A stretch of DNA of 64,000 nt from a virus: positions 1 through 64,000 of IMG/VR virus record IMGVR_UViG_3300035180_001778, one strand, 5' to 3'. Made by a program: the position numbers and the translations under genes. The notes under the pieces are model-generated. The model made no database searches and was not told the DNA's origin. It saw nothing but the letters and a program-made list of their open reading frames with translations. Of this stretch, positions 49,044 to 59,461 are shown one piece after another. Numbering within the stretch: the first letter of the stretch is position 1; every line of letters begins with the position of its first letter.

Positions 49044-49976
49044 ATGTCCTCCCCCGCGCGCCCCTTTCTCAAATGGGTTGGTGGCAAGACCACCCTTCTA
49101 TCCTTCCTCCTCAAGACCTACCCCAAGAAGATCGGGACCTACTACGAACCCTTCCTTGGGGGTGGCGCTAGTTTCTGGGCGCTCGCTCAAGAGAAGAGGT
49201 TCGAGAAGGCCGTCCTGACCGACTTGAATGCCGAGCTGGTCAACGCATACCTGATGGTCGGCGGCTTCGGTGAAGAGGTGATTCGAGACCTTCTTGCGGT
49301 ACAAACCGCGTATCGCATCGCCCCCAAGGAAACGTTCACGACCTGGCGGCAGATGGACCCGGCGCTTCTGGAGCCGGTCACCCGAGCTGTCAGGATGATC
49401 TTCCTGAATAAGACCTGCTTCAACGGCTTGTACCGGACCAACAAGAAGGGGCAGTTCAACTCTCCCTGGGGGAAAGAAGAGAACGCCTCGATTTGCGATG
49501 GGGCCAATATCTCGGCTTGTGCGGAGGTCCTCCGGAGGGTCGATTCGACACTGGACGGACTCACCATTCAGCACAAGCCGTGGTGGCAAGAGGTCTCTCA
49601 GGCTCAGCCGGGGGACCTCGTCTACTTCGATCCCCCCTACGTGCCGGTCTCTGACACCGCGAGCTTCACGGGATACACTTCAGAGGGCTTCCCTGAAGCG
49701 GAACAGAGAGCCCTCGCCAAGAGCTTCTCTGAGCTGGCAGAACGTGGGGTGGCCGTCGTCCTCTCGAACTCGGATACGCCCCTTGTGAGAGAGCTGTACG
49801 AGGGGTGGGAAATTCACGAGGTGAAGATGGGGCGCTCTATCAACTCGGACGGAGCGAAGCGCGAAGCTGTGGGCGAAGTGGTCGTGGTGGGTCGCCGGGA
49901 CGGACTCACCCCTTTCATCTCGGAGCACCAAGAAGACCCCTTCGCCTACATGAACGCCCTCATGGAAGAGTTCTAG
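49044..49976 (+). CDS. DNA N6-adenine methyltransferase (Dam / D12 class)
   Basis: 310 residues. FLKWVGGKTTLL (residues 8-19) and YYEPFLGGGASFWAL form the SAM site; YFDPPYVPVS is the D-P-P-Y catalytic motif; the order is that of alpha-class D12 enzymes such as Dam. It likely methylates adenine in a short motif, protecting phage DNA from restriction or marking it. No partner nuclease is seen, so it is a solitary methylase. GGGGGAGGG lies before the ATG and GCGGTGTAGC further up. Confidence 0.9.
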   Translation: MSSPARPFLKWVGGKTTLLSFLLKTYPKKIGTYYEPFLGGGASFWALAQEKRFEKAVLTDLNAELVNAYLMVGGFGEEVIRDLLAVQTAYRIAPKETFTTWRQMDPALLEPVTRAVRMIFLNKTCFNGLYRTNKKGQFNSPWGKEENASICDGANISACAEVLRRVDSTLDGLTIQHKPWWQEVSQAQPGDLVYFDPPYVPVSDTASFTGYTSEGFPEAEQRALAKSFSELAERGVAVVLSNSDTPLVRELYEGWEIHEVKMGRSINSDGAKREAVGEVVVVGRRDGLTPFISEHQEDPFAYMNALMEEF

Positions 49977-51225
49977 CGAACTTGACCTTCCCAGGGATGG
50001 CGATGTGGAGCCAGTGTCGGACTTGCTCCGGCACTCGGCCGGGACCGTAGGCGACCATGAGCCCAATGGCCTCGCAGAAGGCCTCCTCGGGGTTCTTGTT
50101 GGCGTAGGCTGTGATGGGTGTCGAGGGGACTCGAACGGTCTTGGTGCCCTCTGAGAGGAGCTTCTCGAAGTCGTCTCGGTTGAAGCGGTCGTGCAGGTAG
50201 GCACGGTCGTGAGACAGCGCATCGAGCTGGAGCGCAAGAACGGGGTCCGATGTCTCCAGGTGCTTCATCAGCGAATGCGTGAAATGTCCGACGTTGGGGG
50301 GCCACTTGCTCAACAGCTCGGCGATGTCGAGTTCCTTCAGGTCCCCGCTGATCACGGCGTACCAGAAGTCGCTCCCATCCTTGCCGAGGTGCTTGAACAG
50401 GTGGTGGCCCATCTCGTGAGCCATCACATGGGTTGCCCACTCGGGCCGTTCTGAGATCAAGGAGGCCGTCGAGAGAGTGATGGTGCCGTCTCCGTTGTAG
50501 CGGCCCCCCTCATCGAGGGTCATCCCGAAGTCCAGGATGACCGGGAGCTGGTTCTGGATCAACCAGGGGAGAATCTTGGCGGCTTTGGTCTTGTAGTCCT
50601 GGAGCCCCTGCTTCAGCTTCGAGAGAACCTTCTCATTCCAATGCGTATCGGACAAGTCGGTTCGATCGGACTTGAACCCGTGCATGATCACCTGGAATCC
50701 TTCCAAGGTGATCGTCTCATCCTTCGGGACATCAACAGGGATTTCGGGCGCCATCCCATTTGTCTTGAGCATCTCGAAGACTTCACGCATCGCTGTCCAG
50801 AAGACTCGGGCTTTGGCTTGAACGCGAGCCTTCCACTTGGGGGCATTGCGCTCGAACTCCAAGAACCGGCTCTCCTCGGAGTAATACTCGTTGGCAAACC
50901 CGATGGGCATGCTCTTCAGCTCCGACATCCATGTCCAAGCGACCGCACGAGTCTTGTGGTCGATCCAAGAGACATCGTGTCCTGTTGCCTTGGAAATGTC
51001 GTACTTGACGGCGTCCCCAAGGAAGTGCTTGAAGAACATGTCATCGAACCGATTGGAGTAGATCCGAATCGCTACCCGCAGCTCATGCGCTGTCTTGTAG
51101 TCTTTGACCAGGGGTATGTTCTTGACCAGCGTCAAGAAGTCCTTCCGGAGCTTCTCGATGAGAGCAAGGTCGACCATGACCTTGTCGGCGATCAGGAACC
51201 TGGCGAGAACTCGGTGAGCGATCAT
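49960..51225 (-). CDS. Zinc metalloprotease (HExxH)
   Basis: 421 residues from MIAHRVLARFLIADKVMVDL; start in ATGA overlap with the topoisomerase stop. Catalytic HVMAHEMGHHLFKHLG near residue 282. A late Glu for the third ligand lies about 20-60 residues on. The N-terminus carries the R-V-L-A-R-F motif found in all four genes of this cluster. Its substrate is unknown; a virion or ejected-protein protease is possible. Converges with the methyltransferase gene (17-bp overlap). Confidence 0.8.
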   Translation of the reverse strand: MIAHRVLARFLIADKVMVDLALIEKLRKDFLTLVKNIPLVKDYKTAHELRVAIRIYSNRFDDMFFKHFLGDAVKYDISKATGHDVSWIDHKTRAVAWTWMSELKSMPIGFANEYYSEESRFLEFERNAPKWKARVQAKARVFWTAMREVFEMLKTNGMAPEIPVDVPKDETITLEGFQVIMHGFKSDRTDLSDTHWNEKVLSKLKQGLQDYKTKAAKILPWLIQNQLPVILDFGMTLDEGGRYNGDGTITLSTASLISERPEWATHVMAHEMGHHLFKHLGKDGSDFWYAVISGDLKELDIAELLSKWPPNVGHFTHSLMKHLETSDPVLALQLDALSHDRAYLHDRFNRDDFEKLLSEGTKTVRVPSTPITAYANKNPEEAFCEAIGLMVAYGPGRVPEQVRHWLHIAIPGKVKFARTLP

Positions 51226-52958
51226 CGGAAGGACACCGGGCGCAGGAAGTAGTAGGCAAACCACTTCTCGCTCTCATACCCCTTCATCGCGTCCAAGAGG
51301 TCGTACATCTTGTCGCTCGGGGCCTCTCGTCGGATTTCTGCGTCCGCTGCCTTGATGCGGCGTTCGAGATTGTCGAGCCAGTGATCGAGGGCTTGGGCCA
51401 TCTTGGGATCGCTCATGTCCTGGGGGACCATCTCCGCCGTGACCTCCCGGGCGTACCGCGTCCCCTTGAAGAAGAACTGGAACCACTTGGTGTGTTGGCG
51501 CTCGCCGATGGCATCCGTGAGCTGCACGAAGGCCTTCCCGGGTGTGCCCTGCCCCCGAAGCTCCTGGTTGGCCCGCTGAGTCAACTGGAGCAGGTTGTCG
51601 AGCCACTTGTCGAGGTCCTTCGACATCGTTCCGGGGTCAACCCAGGAATCGGAGTTGTCGTCGTAGTAGCTCGCTTCCTTGTACTTCGACATGAAGCGGG
51701 CGAGGATCCGTTCCGACTGGTCATGCTCTTCGGGTTTCCCGTGGCAGCTACAGCTCTCGCACCCCTGCTTGAGGGACGCCGCCTTCTCGTGGAGCTTGTC
51801 CATGACCGTCCCATCCTTCAGATATGTGTCCTCCAGTCCGGGGACGAGATACTGGCTCTTCAGCGTGGCAGGCTCGTGGCCCACGGCTTCCGCTGTGACT
51901 TCGAGGGCTTCCTTGAACTCTTCCTTGAGCTGCTTCTCCCGCTTCTTGGGGTCTTCGGGGAGCTTGCCGCCCTTCTTCCTGGAGGCCTTGAGCTGGTCCT
52001 GCATCTCGACGTTCGCGTGCAACCCACGGATGTCCTTTGCCGAGATGTCAAATTCCTTCAGGTAGGCGTTCACCTTCTCGGCTGAGACCTTGCCCCCGTC
52101 CCACTCGAAGATACAGGACGTCTCGTTCTCGGCCGCCTCACAGGCATCCTTGAGCGCCTTGGTGATGGTCGAGTCGGTCACCTTCTTGACGTGCTTGACG
52201 CCGGACTTGCCGACGTACTTGATGGTCGCCCCGCCCTTGCTGAAGGTGATGTGGTCCTTCTGCCAGCCCGTGACCCCGAAGTGCCCGTCGTCCGCGCTCT
52301 CGTCGTTCCCGACCCGCTCGAACGTGTGATCCATCAGCATCACGGCGAGGGCCGTGAGCATCTTCTCGGGATCGCTCGACTTCAGGTCCTTCTTGGCCTT
52401 CGAGCGGACGTCGTCGATCTTGCCCCGGAGCTTCTCGATTCGCTTCGCCTTCTCCCGGTTCCGGTTGGCGATCTGCTTGTCGGAGTACTCGTAGACGGTC
52501 ATATCCTCGCCGTCTTGAGTCTTGACCTTCTTTTTCTTCTTGTAGCGGGCCGCGACTTTTTCGGTGATACCCATCATCTTGAGTTCGATCGGGGAGTAGA
52601 ACTGGAACACAGGGTTGGGAATGGTCACGGTCGACGCCGAAGAGATGTCGTCCCGCTGGAACACGTAGGGATTCCCGATGGTGCCTCCCTTGGGGTCGCG
52701 GGATGTCCACAGCTCGGACTTCCCATACACTCCCACGAAGACGATCCAAGAGCCTCCGTCGATGACCCCGAGGTAGCCTCCAACCTCTTTGGGGTTGGAG
52801 TAAATCTCCGTCAGGCCCGCGGTCAGAGCAGGGTGGTCCGCCATCTCCGGCGGTAGAGGCATCCCCCCGGAGCTTCCCCTTGCCACGACGGATCGTAGAG
52901 CGGCCTCCCGGCGGGAGACGACATGTTGAGCAGCTACTCGGAGGGACCGGCTGTGCAT
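51222..52958 (-). CDS. DNA topoisomerase IB with C-terminal repeat extension
   Basis: 578 residues from MHSRSLRVAAQHVVSRREAA, 5 bases after the upstream stop. Poxvirus-type active site: Arg in TFERVGND, Lys in KSGVKHVKKV, Arg in AKDIRGLHANVEM, His in AVGHEPATLKSQY and the nucleophile Tyr in that same segment. Residues 1-400 cover the enzyme. Residues 405-578 are extra: CESCSCHG, then RILARFMSKYKEA, then two repeats with D-x-W-L-D-N-L ... K-W-F-x-[FY]-[FY]. It relaxes supercoils. Confidence 0.9.
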   Translation of the reverse strand: MHSRSLRVAAQHVVSRREAALRSVVARGSSGGMPLPPEMADHPALTAGLTEIYSNPKEVGGYLGVIDGGSWIVFVGVYGKSELWTSRDPKGGTIGNPYVFQRDDISSASTVTIPNPVFQFYSPIELKMMGITEKVAARYKKKKKVKTQDGEDMTVYEYSDKQIANRNREKAKRIEKLRGKIDDVRSKAKKDLKSSDPEKMLTALAVMLMDHTFERVGNDESADDGHFGVTGWQKDHITFSKGGATIKYVGKSGVKHVKKVTDSTITKALKDACEAAENETSCIFEWDGGKVSAEKVNAYLKEFDISAKDIRGLHANVEMQDQLKASRKKGGKLPEDPKKREKQLKEEFKEALEVTAEAVGHEPATLKSQYLVPGLEDTYLKDGTVMDKLHEKAASLKQGCESCSCHGKPEEHDQSERILARFMSKYKEASYYDDNSDSWVDPGTMSKDLDKWLDNLLQLTQRANQELRGQGTPGKAFVQLTDAIGERQHTKWFQFFFKGTRYAREVTAEMVPQDMSDPKMAQALDHWLDNLERRIKAADAEIRREAPSDKMYDLLDAMKGYESEKWFAYYFLRPVSFR

Positions 52959-52963
52959 GGGTT

Positions 52964-54841
52964 CTACATCAGGGGCGACGTACAAGAGAAATCTCCCCCA
53001 AGAAGCTGGAACCGAGCGAGGACTTGCTCAGCGGTCACGAGGGAGGATCGCTTCAGGATGAGCTTGAAGGTTTCGAGCTGGTCACGAGACATGTCCCAGT
53101 TCATGACGTAGGACCGAAACACCTCGGCCCATGCTTCGCCAATGTTGCTCCGGCCATAATCAGAGACAGGGAGGACCTCACGAGGATCAGCATCCCACTC
53201 GTCTTCCCAGGCCTTGGTGCGAAGCTCGATGTTGGTTTCTTGAAGCTCCTTCGCGTTCGAGTCCTTGATCGATTCGTCGATGAATGCGAAGGAGGTCTTC
53301 ATCGATTCGTCGATGAGAGCAATGCCCTTTTTGGCCCAAGCCGCCAAGATAGCCTTGAACGCAGTGTTCTTTGCCTCCTCGTCAGGGTACTTGGTGAGCT
53401 TCAGGGCCAGCTTGGGTGCCGCTTTGAAGTACACGTAAAGAGCCTTGCTCTTGGCGAAGGCATCCCAGTACAGCTTCTCGATCTCGGGGGTCCCTCGCTT
53501 CCAGGTGGTGTTCGTGAACACACTGGAAAGTTCATCCCGATGCTTCTTCGCAGCCTCTTCCAGAGGGGGCCCGAACTTGGCGAGAGTCTCCTGATACCCC
53601 AATTTGGAGTCCGTCATGTTCCCCAAGGGCTCTGCAATCGCCCCGAGGAGATCGAGAATCTGGTTTTTGCCCTTCTTGATCTTCTCGGGAGGGATGATGT
53701 AGGGGTCCCTCGTCTTCTCGGGCTTCTTGTTCTTATGCACCCGGACGAGGCTCTCAAAGAACTCTCGCTGTCTTGAGGAGAGCTGATGGAACCAGTACCT
53801 ATGGCCCAGCTCGTGGGCCATATAGCCCACGATGTGTTCGCTAGGGCGGGCGTAAATCATGACGACGTCTTTGCCGATATTGTATCTACCGGCTACTCCC
53901 AGGTCCGCCCCATTTTGATTGACCCCACCGCACGACTCACATTGAATGAAGACGACACCATACCACGCAGACTCAAGCTTCTTGGCTCGAAGGCGGTTGT
54001 AGGTCTCGTCGAGGTATCTGATGTAGAGACGGGTGTCGTCAGGGGTGACCTTCGAGTCCTCGATGATGACCCGCATCCCGTACATGTCAAAGTCGGTGAC
54101 TGTCGGAGTAGGGTTCGCTTCTTGGGCTTGTGCTGAGAACTTCTCGATGAGGTCCTTTTGAACGACGTCCACCCAATCCATGATCCATCCCCCGAACCCA
54201 GAGGGAGACTTGAGCAGAAGCTTCTTGCTGGCAGCGGTGAACCCCGACTGAGTCAGGTACTCCCAACGCCGCTTGCTGTCCGCGTCGTCTCCAAAAGACT
54301 CGGCCATGCCGTTCTTGAAGGCGGCGATCAGCTCGGGGGTTGTGATGCCCTTGAGGGCTTTCTGGACAAGGCTGTCCCGCTTCGGTAGGTCCACCCTCCA
54401 GTAGTACTTGATGTAGTCGAGCAGCGTGGAGACCTGGTCTTTGAAGGCGTACTCGATGTCAATACGTATCGTCCACTTGAGATACCCCTCGATATCCCCC
54501 GGAGCCGGAGTAGGGACAGATGTCAACATCTCCGCTGACTTCTGAGCCACCATGAGGTTCTCGGCCATGATCTTGTACCGAGTGTTGATGTACTCCCGGG
54601 CCGGGGCGAACGTGATGATGCTGTTGAAGTCTTCCTGGAATTCCAGGAAGAAGGTCTTCAAGTCCGTCATGACCTTGTACGCCACGTCCTCGGGGCTATT
54701 CGAGTTCCCCAGGGGAGTCTTGAGGCGCTTCCGCAATTCGGCCTTCTTCTCTTTGAAGAACTTGCTCGAAAGGAAGAACTCCGGGTCAGGAGCCTTCTTC
54801 GCCCCAAGGAATCGGGAAACTACACGAGAGGATAGAGACAT
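52964..54841 (-). CDS. Large zinc metalloprotease (HExxH)
   Basis: 625 residues. Catalytic VGYMAHELGHRYWFHQ at about residue 340, C-E-S-C just before it, and a helical C-terminal half with an internal IDES[MI]K repeat. MSLSSRVVSRFLGAKK opens it and AEQVLARFQLLGGD nearly ends it, both versions of the R-V-[LV]-[AS]-R-F motif. Distant from the other protease at 49960. The stop precedes the topoisomerase start by 5 bases. Confidence 0.8.
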   Translation of the reverse strand: MSLSSRVVSRFLGAKKAPDPEFFLSSKFFKEKKAELRKRLKTPLGNSNSPEDVAYKVMTDLKTFFLEFQEDFNSIITFAPAREYINTRYKIMAENLMVAQKSAEMLTSVPTPAPGDIEGYLKWTIRIDIEYAFKDQVSTLLDYIKYYWRVDLPKRDSLVQKALKGITTPELIAAFKNGMAESFGDDADSKRRWEYLTQSGFTAASKKLLLKSPSGFGGWIMDWVDVVQKDLIEKFSAQAQEANPTPTVTDFDMYGMRVIIEDSKVTPDDTRLYIRYLDETYNRLRAKKLESAWYGVVFIQCESCGGVNQNGADLGVAGRYNIGKDVVMIYARPSEHIVGYMAHELGHRYWFHQLSSRQREFFESLVRVHKNKKPEKTRDPYIIPPEKIKKGKNQILDLLGAIAEPLGNMTDSKLGYQETLAKFGPPLEEAAKKHRDELSSVFTNTTWKRGTPEIEKLYWDAFAKSKALYVYFKAAPKLALKLTKYPDEEAKNTAFKAILAAWAKKGIALIDESMKTSFAFIDESIKDSNAKELQETNIELRTKAWEDEWDADPREVLPVSDYGRSNIGEAWAEVFRSYVMNWDMSRDQLETFKLILKRSSLVTAEQVLARFQLLGGDFSCTSPLM

Positions 54842-54844
54842 GGT

Positions 54845-55852
54845 TCAGTCTTCCCCGTCGTCGAGCATGGCGGCCTGGGTGTAACGAGCGAGCACCTTCT
54901 GAGCAAGAGCCGGCGGAGGGTCGTGCCAGATCTTGTAGAGGCCGATGATTTGGTTCTTCTTCCGGCCCTTGGGGACGGGCTCAATCTCGATGATGGGGTT
55001 CCCCTTGACGTCGAGCCCCACGGAGACGATCCTGCCCTTCTTGTTCTTGTACTTGCCGTACAGAATCCGGTCCCCCACATCGAAGAATCCCCGAGCGGAC
55101 ACGCTTTTCGAGGCGGTCATGTGGTGCGAGTAGACTTCGAGAAACTGCGCCTCGAACTCCCCAATCCGAGTTGAATCGTTCTCGTCGATCTTCACGTTCG
55201 CTGGGACCAAGACGTAAGCAGTTGCCATCTCGTATTCTTCGCTGATGTTCGTCTGAAGGATGGACCCACCCATTGCCGCCAGCTCGTGTTCGAGCCTCTT
55301 GACCATGGTCTGTGCGAGTTCCACAGACCATCCGCCAAAAGGGATGTCGAACTCGACGTAGCCCTTGAGAGGGAGTTGCTGTCCCTTCTCGTGGTGGCTC
55401 TTTCGAAAGCGAACCAGGTACTCGATGTACTTCGCGTCGTGGGGGGAAACGAAGACAGCGACCACGTCAGCTACCCGGACGCTGGCCGTCACGACCTCAT
55501 ACCCTCGCATCTGGGCGAAGTGTGTTGCCATCTTGAAGGACGGCGTCCAGGAGAGGAACTTCCGGACGATCGCCGGCTTGTCCACGGGCTCCCCTCGGTA
55601 GAGCGTGACCTCTGCCCCATGCTTGCTGTGGACCAGGTTGCGGACTGGCGTGTAGAGGTCGTACAGCTCGTCAGCATGGGCTTCCAGGGCCGGCGCAGAG
55701 CCTCCGAACACCCCGTGAAGGAAAGTCTCCACGCCGTGCTTCAAGTCGCTCGGAAGAGCCTCGAACACCGCAAGAGCGGCCTCTCGAACAGCCCCGTCCG
55801 TAGCGAGAGTCCCCGCGTATCTTTGCGCCACTTTTGAGGAAGCCGGAGCCAT
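54845..55852 (-). CDS. Putative ADP-ribosyltransferase with SH3-like C-terminal part and acidic tail
   Basis: 335 residues. Residues 80-150 follow the R-S-E ADP-ribosyltransferase pattern: EVTLYRGEP (Arg86), FLSWTPSFKMATHFA (S-x-T-x-S at 101-105), then KYIEYLVRFR (Glu144). Such enzymes use NAD to modify proteins; T4 Alt, packaged and injected, is a phage example. Residues 265-310 resemble a small KOW/SH3 part (GFFDVGDRILYGKYKNKKGR). SKVAQRYAG near the start and QKVLARYTQAAMLDDGED at the end combine the cluster motif and an acidic tail. The function is inferred from motifs only. Confidence 0.6.
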   Translation of the reverse strand: MAPASSKVAQRYAGTLATDGAVREAALAVFEALPSDLKHGVETFLHGVFGGSAPALEAHADELYDLYTPVRNLVHSKHGAEVTLYRGEPVDKPAIVRKFLSWTPSFKMATHFAQMRGYEVVTASVRVADVVAVFVSPHDAKYIEYLVRFRKSHHEKGQQLPLKGYVEFDIPFGGWSVELAQTMVKRLEHELAAMGGSILQTNISEEYEMATAYVLVPANVKIDENDSTRIGEFEAQFLEVYSHHMTASKSVSARGFFDVGDRILYGKYKNKKGRIVSVGLDVKGNPIIEIEPVPKGRKKNQIIGLYKIWHDPPPALAQKVLARYTQAAMLDDGED

Positions 55853-58659: not shown

Positions 58660-58931
58660 CTACACCAAGAACGTGCGCCCAAGCTGGAGAGCGCGAGCAT
58701 CCGCCGCTTCTTTTGCCTTCTCGAAGTCCAGATCGAAGCCCTTCCAGTCATTGGACCCATGACAGACCTTCCAGATCCATCCCAGCCCCGGCTTTCTTTG
58801 GAGCCAAGTCTTCTTCTCGGTTTCATCGATCTCTTTTGGGGAAAGAGACATGATTGACGACCCAGTCTCGTGATCACGACGACAGAGAAAACGAGCGTCT
58901 GCTGAGGCAGGTTCCCAGATCGAAGGATCAT
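58660..58931 (-). CDS. Hypothetical protein, frameshifted in a G run
   Basis: The ATG at 58931 overlaps the macro-domain stop (ATGA). After MILRSG one G must be added (GGG near 58916) to read EPASADARFLCRRDHETGSS, then MSLSPKEIDETEKKTWLQRK and WIWKVCHGSNDWKGFDLDFE, ending LQLGRTFLV at 58660. Length fits one lost base. About 90 residues; function unknown. Confidence 0.6.
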
Positions 58932-59461
58932 GCTCGGTAGGTCCCTCCAGGGACGTCGTACACGTAGACATCGAGGCCACCCATGGTCTCTTCGATGATC
59001 TTGGAGACCTCCGCCCAAGACCCACCCGCGAGCCCACAGCCGATCCTCGGCATGTGGATCGTGGCTTGGGTGGTCCTGGCAGCCTTTGCCACCTTCTGGA
59101 GGCACTTCCTCAGTGCGTCGTAGCGAATCGGAGGCCCGTCATCGTCTGCGCCCTTGTGCTGCGTCTTCTTGGAGCCGTAGCCGGTTTGGGCGATCATGTT
59201 CATCACCCAGATCCCGTTGTCCTCATGGGTCTTCCCCTGGACGCTCACGCTTTGAACCTCCCCAAGAGCGAACGGTCCGCTTCGAGGATGCTTCCCGTTT
59301 CGATACCACTCTCGGTAGGCGATCTCGGGGTCAAACCAACGCCCCGAGATCGCGAGGACGAATCCAGCGCCCCATCCCCCGACGTCGTTGCAGATGTGGA
59401 CGATGTATCGCGTCCCCGTGCCTTGGGGTCGGACGGCATTGCCGATGAGGTAGTGGATCAT
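58928..59461 (-). CDS. Macro domain (Poa1p-like ADP-ribose phosphatase / hydrolase)
   Basis: 177 residues, a single macro domain. VHICNDVGGWGAGFVLAIS binds ADP-ribose, MIAQTGYG and IHMPRIGCGLAGGSWAEV complete the pocket. This subgroup removes phosphate from ADP-ribose 1''-phosphate or strips ADP-ribose from proteins. With the putative ADP-ribosyltransferase at 54845 it could form a write/erase pair, and it could also counter host ADP-ribose signals. Coupled to both neighbours by ATGA. Confidence 0.9.
   Translation of the reverse strand: MIHYLIGNAVRPQGTGTRYIVHICNDVGGWGAGFVLAISGRWFDPEIAYREWYRNGKHPRSGPFALGEVQSVSVQGKTHEDNGIWVMNMIAQTGYGSKKTQHKGADDDGPPIRYDALRKCLQKVAKAARTTQATIHMPRIGCGLAGGSWAEVSKIIEETMGGLDVYVYDVPGGTYRA

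Follow-up and report, generated by a model that had tools for sequence, protein, structure and literature searches.

A short peptide motif built around R-V-x-x-R-[FY] recurs at the N-terminus, at the C-terminus or at domain joints of many unrelated proteins in a group of related jumbo phages, and the comparisons presented here make it very probable that this motif is a portable sorting tag. It is also probable, at a lower level of confidence, that the tag targets its carriers to the capsid, a reading in which we infer the head as destination as well as packaging, ejection and a binding partner.

The window analyzed here, a stretch of 64,000 nucleotides, is part of a 350,469-bp IMG/VR virus record (the home genome), in which our own codon-model caller defined 496 genes. 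Since the major head protein (190469-191350), head maturation protease (193460-194947), portal (200338-202176) and terminase (204426-206462; all record coordinates) are confirmed by profile, the home virus is a jumbo tailed phage. Relatives were chosen via the capsid protein and comprise G002, G003, G004, G007 and G011, together with the more distant LR745208 and Tunturi_5, the latter being the nearest isolate. Counts for six phages refer to the home phage and the first five of these relatives, with the home phage and G011 closely related and not independent; the records of the related phages may be fragments. Tags are undercounted because gene calling misplaced several starts (e.g., those of home 207157, G004 86699 and home 268174). 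A DNA similarity search with the cluster region against phage records gave no match.

The motif was first noticed in four adjoining genes on the minus strand at 49960-55852, which overlap one another or lie apart by a few bases (49960-51225, 51222-52958/52985, 52964-54841 and 54845-55852) and contain the following features.

49960..51225, minus strand: metalloprotease, 421 aa, with N-terminal tag; HEMGHH, weak Peptidase_M64 similarity
51187..51222, minus strand: tag 1, IAHRVLARFLIA (aa 2-13); profile score 26.6 in the leave-one-genome-out scan
51222..52958, minus strand: topoisomerase IB with N- and C-terminal extensions; Pfam Topoisom_I 1.6e-25, PDB topoisomerase IB matches
51855..52469, minus strand: topoisomerase IB catalytic core (Pfam)
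52533..52568, minus strand: tag 2, ITEKVAARYKKK, joint ahead of the topoisomerase core; score 21.2, aligned in orthologues
51684..51719, minus strand: tag 3, QSERILARFMSK, joint between core and C-terminal extension; score 11.3, weak alone
52964..54841, minus strand: second metalloprotease (HELGH), 625 aa, with a tag at each end
54800..54835, minus strand: tag 4, LSSRVVSRFLGA, N-terminal; score 22.7
53000..53035, minus strand: tag 5, TAEQVLARFQLL, C-terminal; score 16.9
54845..55852, minus strand: putative ADP-ribosyltransferase, then a KOW/SH3-like module (KOW E 0.073, below cut-off), with a tag at each end
55808..55843, minus strand: tag 6, ASSKVAQRYAGT, N-terminal, weak; score 12.1
54872..54907, minus strand: tag 7, LAQKVLARYTQA, C-terminal; score 21.0

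The six peptides quoted in the initial annotation are all found in the genes it named. Their placement mostly near an end holds for both metalloproteases and for the ADP-ribosyltransferase candidate but not for the topoisomerase, where RILARF (aa 385 of 546) is found at the point where the core meets the C-terminal extension; its counterpart in G011, QSERVIARFLSQ, is conserved. A further copy in the same protein, KVAARYK (aa 102), had been overlooked and occupies the joint ahead of the core. The likely start of the topoisomerase, on the basis of the upstream reading frame, is the ATG at 52958 (MHSRSLRVAAQHV..), with 52862 as an alternative. Among the proposed identities, the two metalloproteases are supported by HExxH and a weak M64 match and the topoisomerase IB by its Pfam E value, while that of the ADP-ribosyltransferase is not confirmed, as the protein has no match in Pfam or the PDB and its AlphaFold model, made without relatives, has a pLDDT of 41. 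Each protein of the home cluster has one recognized catalytic domain. For the metalloprotease at 52964-54841, a scan of IMG/VR for close relatives returned its own sequence only, and relatives were obtained via genome comparison. In IMG/VR the ADP-ribosyltransferase candidate has, besides its own sequence (L309), relatives that are limited to the KOW-like end. This KOW/SH3-like module (54953-55099; GKYKNKKGxI..GNPxIExxPxPKGRKKNxxxGLYKIW) recurs among tagged effector proteins (G003_10101, G004_71385, G007_285850 and L311-L322). Near the candidate, at 58928-59461, lies a Macro-domain protein (weak Pfam match, PHROG 335 phosphatase), which might possibly be its ADP-ribose reversal partner.

The motif had been presented as a feature of these four genes. 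It is present in all four, and when the whole window was scanned in six frames for the strict pattern [RKQ][VI][LV][AS]R[FY], five matches were obtained, all inside the cluster; the motif is nevertheless group-wide across related jumbo phages. Extending the six-frame search beyond the window, as had been proposed, gave 10 strict matches in the genome as a whole (350 kb), among them N-terminal matches at 69465 and 207534. The consensus of 57 N-terminal copies is M-x(2-6)-[LI]-[AST]-x-R-V-[AVL]-x-R-[FY]-[LAQ]-x-A. Here R0, V1, R4 and F/Y5 are almost invariant, with R4 and the aromatic residue partly imposed by the search pattern and the flanking [LI], [AST], [LAQ] and A not imposed. In the N-terminal tags of the home phage, the first arginine or lysine is at aa 5-7. 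Within the first 18 aa, the six phages have 10, 9, 9, 10, 15 and 5 matches to a relaxed pattern (total 58), compared with 0, 1, 1, 1, 1 and 0 to the reversed pattern (total 4); LR745208 has one such N-terminal match and Tunturi_5 none. A leave-one-genome-out profile at ≥12 bits yields 19, 24, 18, 21, 15 and 14 matches in the six phages, against expectations of 1.05-1.65 derived from shuffled proteins (1.05 for the 19 of the home proteome), and none in Tunturi_5. Over seven records, LR745208 included, the tag is found on 104 proteins from 56 sequence families. Matches of a housekeeping type are seen for some tagged proteins, a point against a packaging tag; one of these, a Thy1 protein, has the tag inside its domain and is probably a chance match, about one per genome being expected.

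The near-invariant R-V-x-x-R-[FY] is encoded by varied codons, and therefore selection acts on the peptide; the same codon variety rules out DNA duplication as the origin of the tag copies. The mean helical hydrophobic moment of the tag is 0.531, compared with 0.359 ± 0.022 for shuffled 12-mers. As the moment at the beta angle is also raised (0.486), an amphipathic helix of about 12 residues is the likelier form of the tag and a beta reading remains an alternative. With the 12-residue profile, tags are found on 14 of the 182 home genes at 49-210 kb, among cluster, tail and head genes, compared with 0/314 outside this late/structural region (Fisher p = 6e-7). The untagged part includes the 226 genes at 211-350 kb, where replication and nucleotide genes are recognizable, their identities being our own judgement. 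The initial proposal of a short signal that groups proteins and maybe targets the head is strongly supported in its first part, as a portable, position-independent sorting tag on about 50 families in six phages. A search of the open literature for this motif or for a cargo tag of jumbo phages found no relevant publication, which is not proof of absence, and no known packaged protein with the RVxxRF motif was found.

The mobility of the tag is exemplified by topoisomerase IB. The tag is N-terminal in G002 and G007, forms the last residues in G004, lies near the C-terminus in LR745208 and G003_9370, and occupies domain joints or linkers in the home phage. Among topoisomerase IB relatives in IMG/VR, 55 of 75 ORFs have at least one tag beside the core; many of the tagged ones are at least 600 aa long (600-2807 aa), and ORFs of this size contain 51 tags where 0.4 would be expected. 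The orthologues of the metalloprotease at 49960-51225 (L325, L326, L328 and L330) are tagged too, with N-terminal copies and, in three, an additional C-terminal copy. L328 is itself a fusion in the order Nudix-tag-topoisomerase-tag-metalloprotease-tag, in which we take the first domain to be Nudix from its sequence, and the internal tag of the home 67052 protein corresponds in G011 to the N-terminus of a stand-alone protein. As judged from such arrangements, the internal tags of the home phage are explained by domain fusion, as in L328. Of the 78 reciprocal orthologue pairs in which at least one member is tagged, 45 are tagged in both members.

Topoisomerase IB is also a recurrent module of giant multidomain proteins (up to 2807 aa) in huge phages (L234-L308). 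The polyvalent make-up, with several effector or enzymatic domains per polypeptide, is seen in the relatives L280 (InPase, topoisomerase IB, RNA ligase and a carboxypeptidase-like domain) and L270 (InPase, i.e., inorganic pyrophosphatase, and topoisomerase IB). Pfam matches among 76 tagged proteins comprise topoisomerase IB (four), DnaJ (two), single matches to ART-PolyVal (in a tagged G003 protein), DRAT, LigT/2'-5' RNA ligase (with a weaker Acb1 match), HAD, Peptidase_Mx and M64, and a weak match to Zeta toxin. Polyvalent proteins, which combine ART, metallopeptidase and further enzymatic domains, have been proposed to be packaged and injected (PMC5512222). By their predicted domains, the tagged cargo types match these polyvalent effectors in ART-PolyVal, InPase, RNA ligase, LigT/Acb1-like domains and metallopeptidases.

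A second tag, YDRR (often MSYSYDRRxA, or more loosely MxYSYDRRxA), occurs in the six phages in 27 copies within 18 aa of the N-terminus and in nine near the C-terminus, often as SYDRR at the very end, compared with just one to three occurrences of the reverse RRDY anywhere per proteome. It is carried by up to about 10 proteins per phage, in G003, G004 and G007 as in the home phage (L002, L006, L007, L012 and L016), where the genes are as follows.

72625-72957, 147906-147998 and 151789-155301, home record coordinates, outside the window: YDRR genes
170151-170867, 267715-268068 and 335387-336106, home record coordinates, outside the window: YDRR genes

The gene at 151789-155301 (L006) encodes a large helicase (PHROG helicase, E 1.8e-85), lies among structural genes and has YDRR at each end of its product, which is possibly virion-associated. 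In two orthologue pairs YDRR replaces RVxxRF: the home 49960 protein begins MIAHRVLARF and G003_2713 has MTYSYDRRVAKD, and G004_277443 has MSLAERVAHRFLQA where the frame of home 268174 opens with MAYSYDCRA upstream of the called start. These replacements suggest that RVxxRF and YDRR are two interchangeable labels. We would go further only tentatively, with somewhat more doubt than belief, to the idea that the RVxxRF helix and the interchangeable YDRR form a general address code that directs, in each phage, dozens of effectors to the head, that the tags travel with domains and build giant polyvalent proteins, and that the injected proteome could be read from sequence.

The evidence for the head as destination, all of it indirect, consists of a linker and tag shared with a head-module protein, tagged genes beside those for portal, protease and terminase, the restriction of tagged home genes to 49-210 kb, and cargo of the polyvalent type. 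A 55-aa linker ('..EREDEEAERLVRPxPKxKPPRxDLRR..DDPD..DKDLSLNYK..') followed by the tag forms a conserved unit. It stands at the N-terminus of a large head-module protein (home 197341-200307, L009), whose gene is flanked by those for the head protease and the portal and has orthologues at about 35 capsid-gene loci (L019, L065, L084 etc.), and about 35 topoisomerase polyproteins also contain it, either internally or at their end; the linker search gave 88 matches, 50 of them with a tag scoring at least 11. A protein of about 126 aa encoded beside the terminase gene has an N-terminal tag in all six phages. The tagged fraction of the home head module, 5/29 compared with 4/76 for the genes at 100-185 kb, is not a significant excess (p = 0.11), and the retention of several tags in fused proteins, where one should serve packaging, counts against the head. 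If the tag does target the capsid, a head-assembly component, either the scaffold or core or the inner capsid surface, would bind the tag helix, and the bound enzymes, such as metalloproteases, topoisomerase IB, ADP-ribosyltransferases and 2H phosphoesterases, would be enclosed as the prohead forms. Any protein with the tag at an accessible end or joint would be packed, and the packed enzymes would be ejected into the next host together with the DNA.

Other explanations can be placed against the same data. A tag arising by chance or composition bias might be expected in an Arg/Ala-rich proteome, and R and A codons are abundant because the home genome is GC-rich (60%); yet the profile finds 14-24 matches per genome against 1-2 in shuffled proteins, N-terminal matches number 5-15 against 0-1 for the reversed motif, and the similarly GC-rich Tunturi_5 (58%) has no match, leaving chance a negligible probability. 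Shared ancestry or duplicated DNA, by which gene copying or fusion would have spread a common N-terminus whose motif has no function, would be in line with the clustering of the genes and with the aligned tag ahead of the core in topoisomerase orthologues. It is very improbable, as the 56 families lack similarity beyond the motif, the motif is kept as its flanks diverge, and N-terminal, C-terminal and internal positions, with shifts between orthologues, contradict it.

More weight, within what we still regard as unlikely, may be given to a processing signal at which a head protease or phage metalloprotease cuts, splitting giant polyproteins into single-domain effectors, a role that would be compatible with a packaging tag. 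Cleavage sites of T4 and phiKZ/SPN3US have an acidic P1 residue, whereas no conserved acidic P1 residue is found beside the tag and no conserved E at a fixed position behind the motif. A cut at C-terminal copies, 2-18 aa from the end, would free almost nothing, and single-domain proteins need no splitting. In favor of processing, fused proteins bear several tags each at their domain joints, a head maturation protease is encoded in the home genome, and the targeting peptides of T4 and SPN3US are cleaved too (PMC5694885, PMC10052503). A comparably low probability is given to a sorting tag with another destination, such as a replication compartment, the nucleoid, a membrane or an early-infection vesicle. 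The sequence indicates only a likely common partner, arginine-bearing amphipathic helices can bind membranes, and topoisomerase works on DNA, all of which would suit such a destination; on the other side stand the absence of tags from the replication and nucleotide gene region at 211-350 kb, the linker and tag in common with a head-module protein, and a set of metalloproteases, ART and 2H domains that does not make a replisome.

The proteins delivered with jumbo-phage DNA are mostly unknown, as functions are lacking for the majority of genes and virion analyses are scarce. If capsid targeting by the tag is correct, the delivered proteins of such phages could be read from the genome by tag lookup, and about 12 to 24 proteins per phage in the six phages would be nominated as delivered effectors, many of them without known function and some of them candidates against bacterial defence. 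The tag would then also be a ready peptide for packing very large heads with foreign enzymes, and the growth of polyvalent proteins could be explained by fusion of pre-tagged modules.

Among known systems, encapsulin and microcompartment peptides are short, are found at either terminus or between domains, and load unrelated enzymes into a protein shell, those of microcompartments being amphipathic helices. The tag shares their positional freedom; no kinship in sequence is claimed, and the shell here would be the phage head. Closer to the present case, the T4 capsid targeting sequence is an N-terminal peptide of 10-20 aa that sends several unrelated proteins into the prohead, an ADP-ribosyltransferase among them (PMC5694885). 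As with the T4 internal proteins and Alt (Mullaney and Black 1996), a short terminal peptide is found on several unrelated proteins. The T4 signal differs in sequence, is N-terminal and is removed by the prohead protease, whereas the tag described here is also C-terminal and internal, lacks an evident cleavage site and occurs on many more proteins. We do not class it as a T4 signal because of this difference in sequence, the lack of an evident cleavage site and its being known here from genes alone. The ejection-protein propeptides of SPN3US and phiKZ likewise target numerous internal proteins of a giant phage to the head; they are mostly 111-254 aa long and cleaved, and two are as short as 20-24 aa (PMC10052503). 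The tagged giant proteins have the same multidomain make-up as the polyvalent proteins of Iyer et al. (2017); a common packaging tag is not described in the part of that paper considered here (PMC5512222), and topoisomerase IB is a recurrent module in the tagged giants. In P1, an N-terminal signal packages the large multidomain antirestriction protein DarB, with the signal mapped to residues 6-10 and the first 30 aa sufficient for a reporter (PMC9024508); it was demonstrated for one P1 protein, and the likeness considered here is one of position. By analogy, the best reading is that the RVxxRF tag would work like the T4 and P1 DarB signals, with a sequence that is new.
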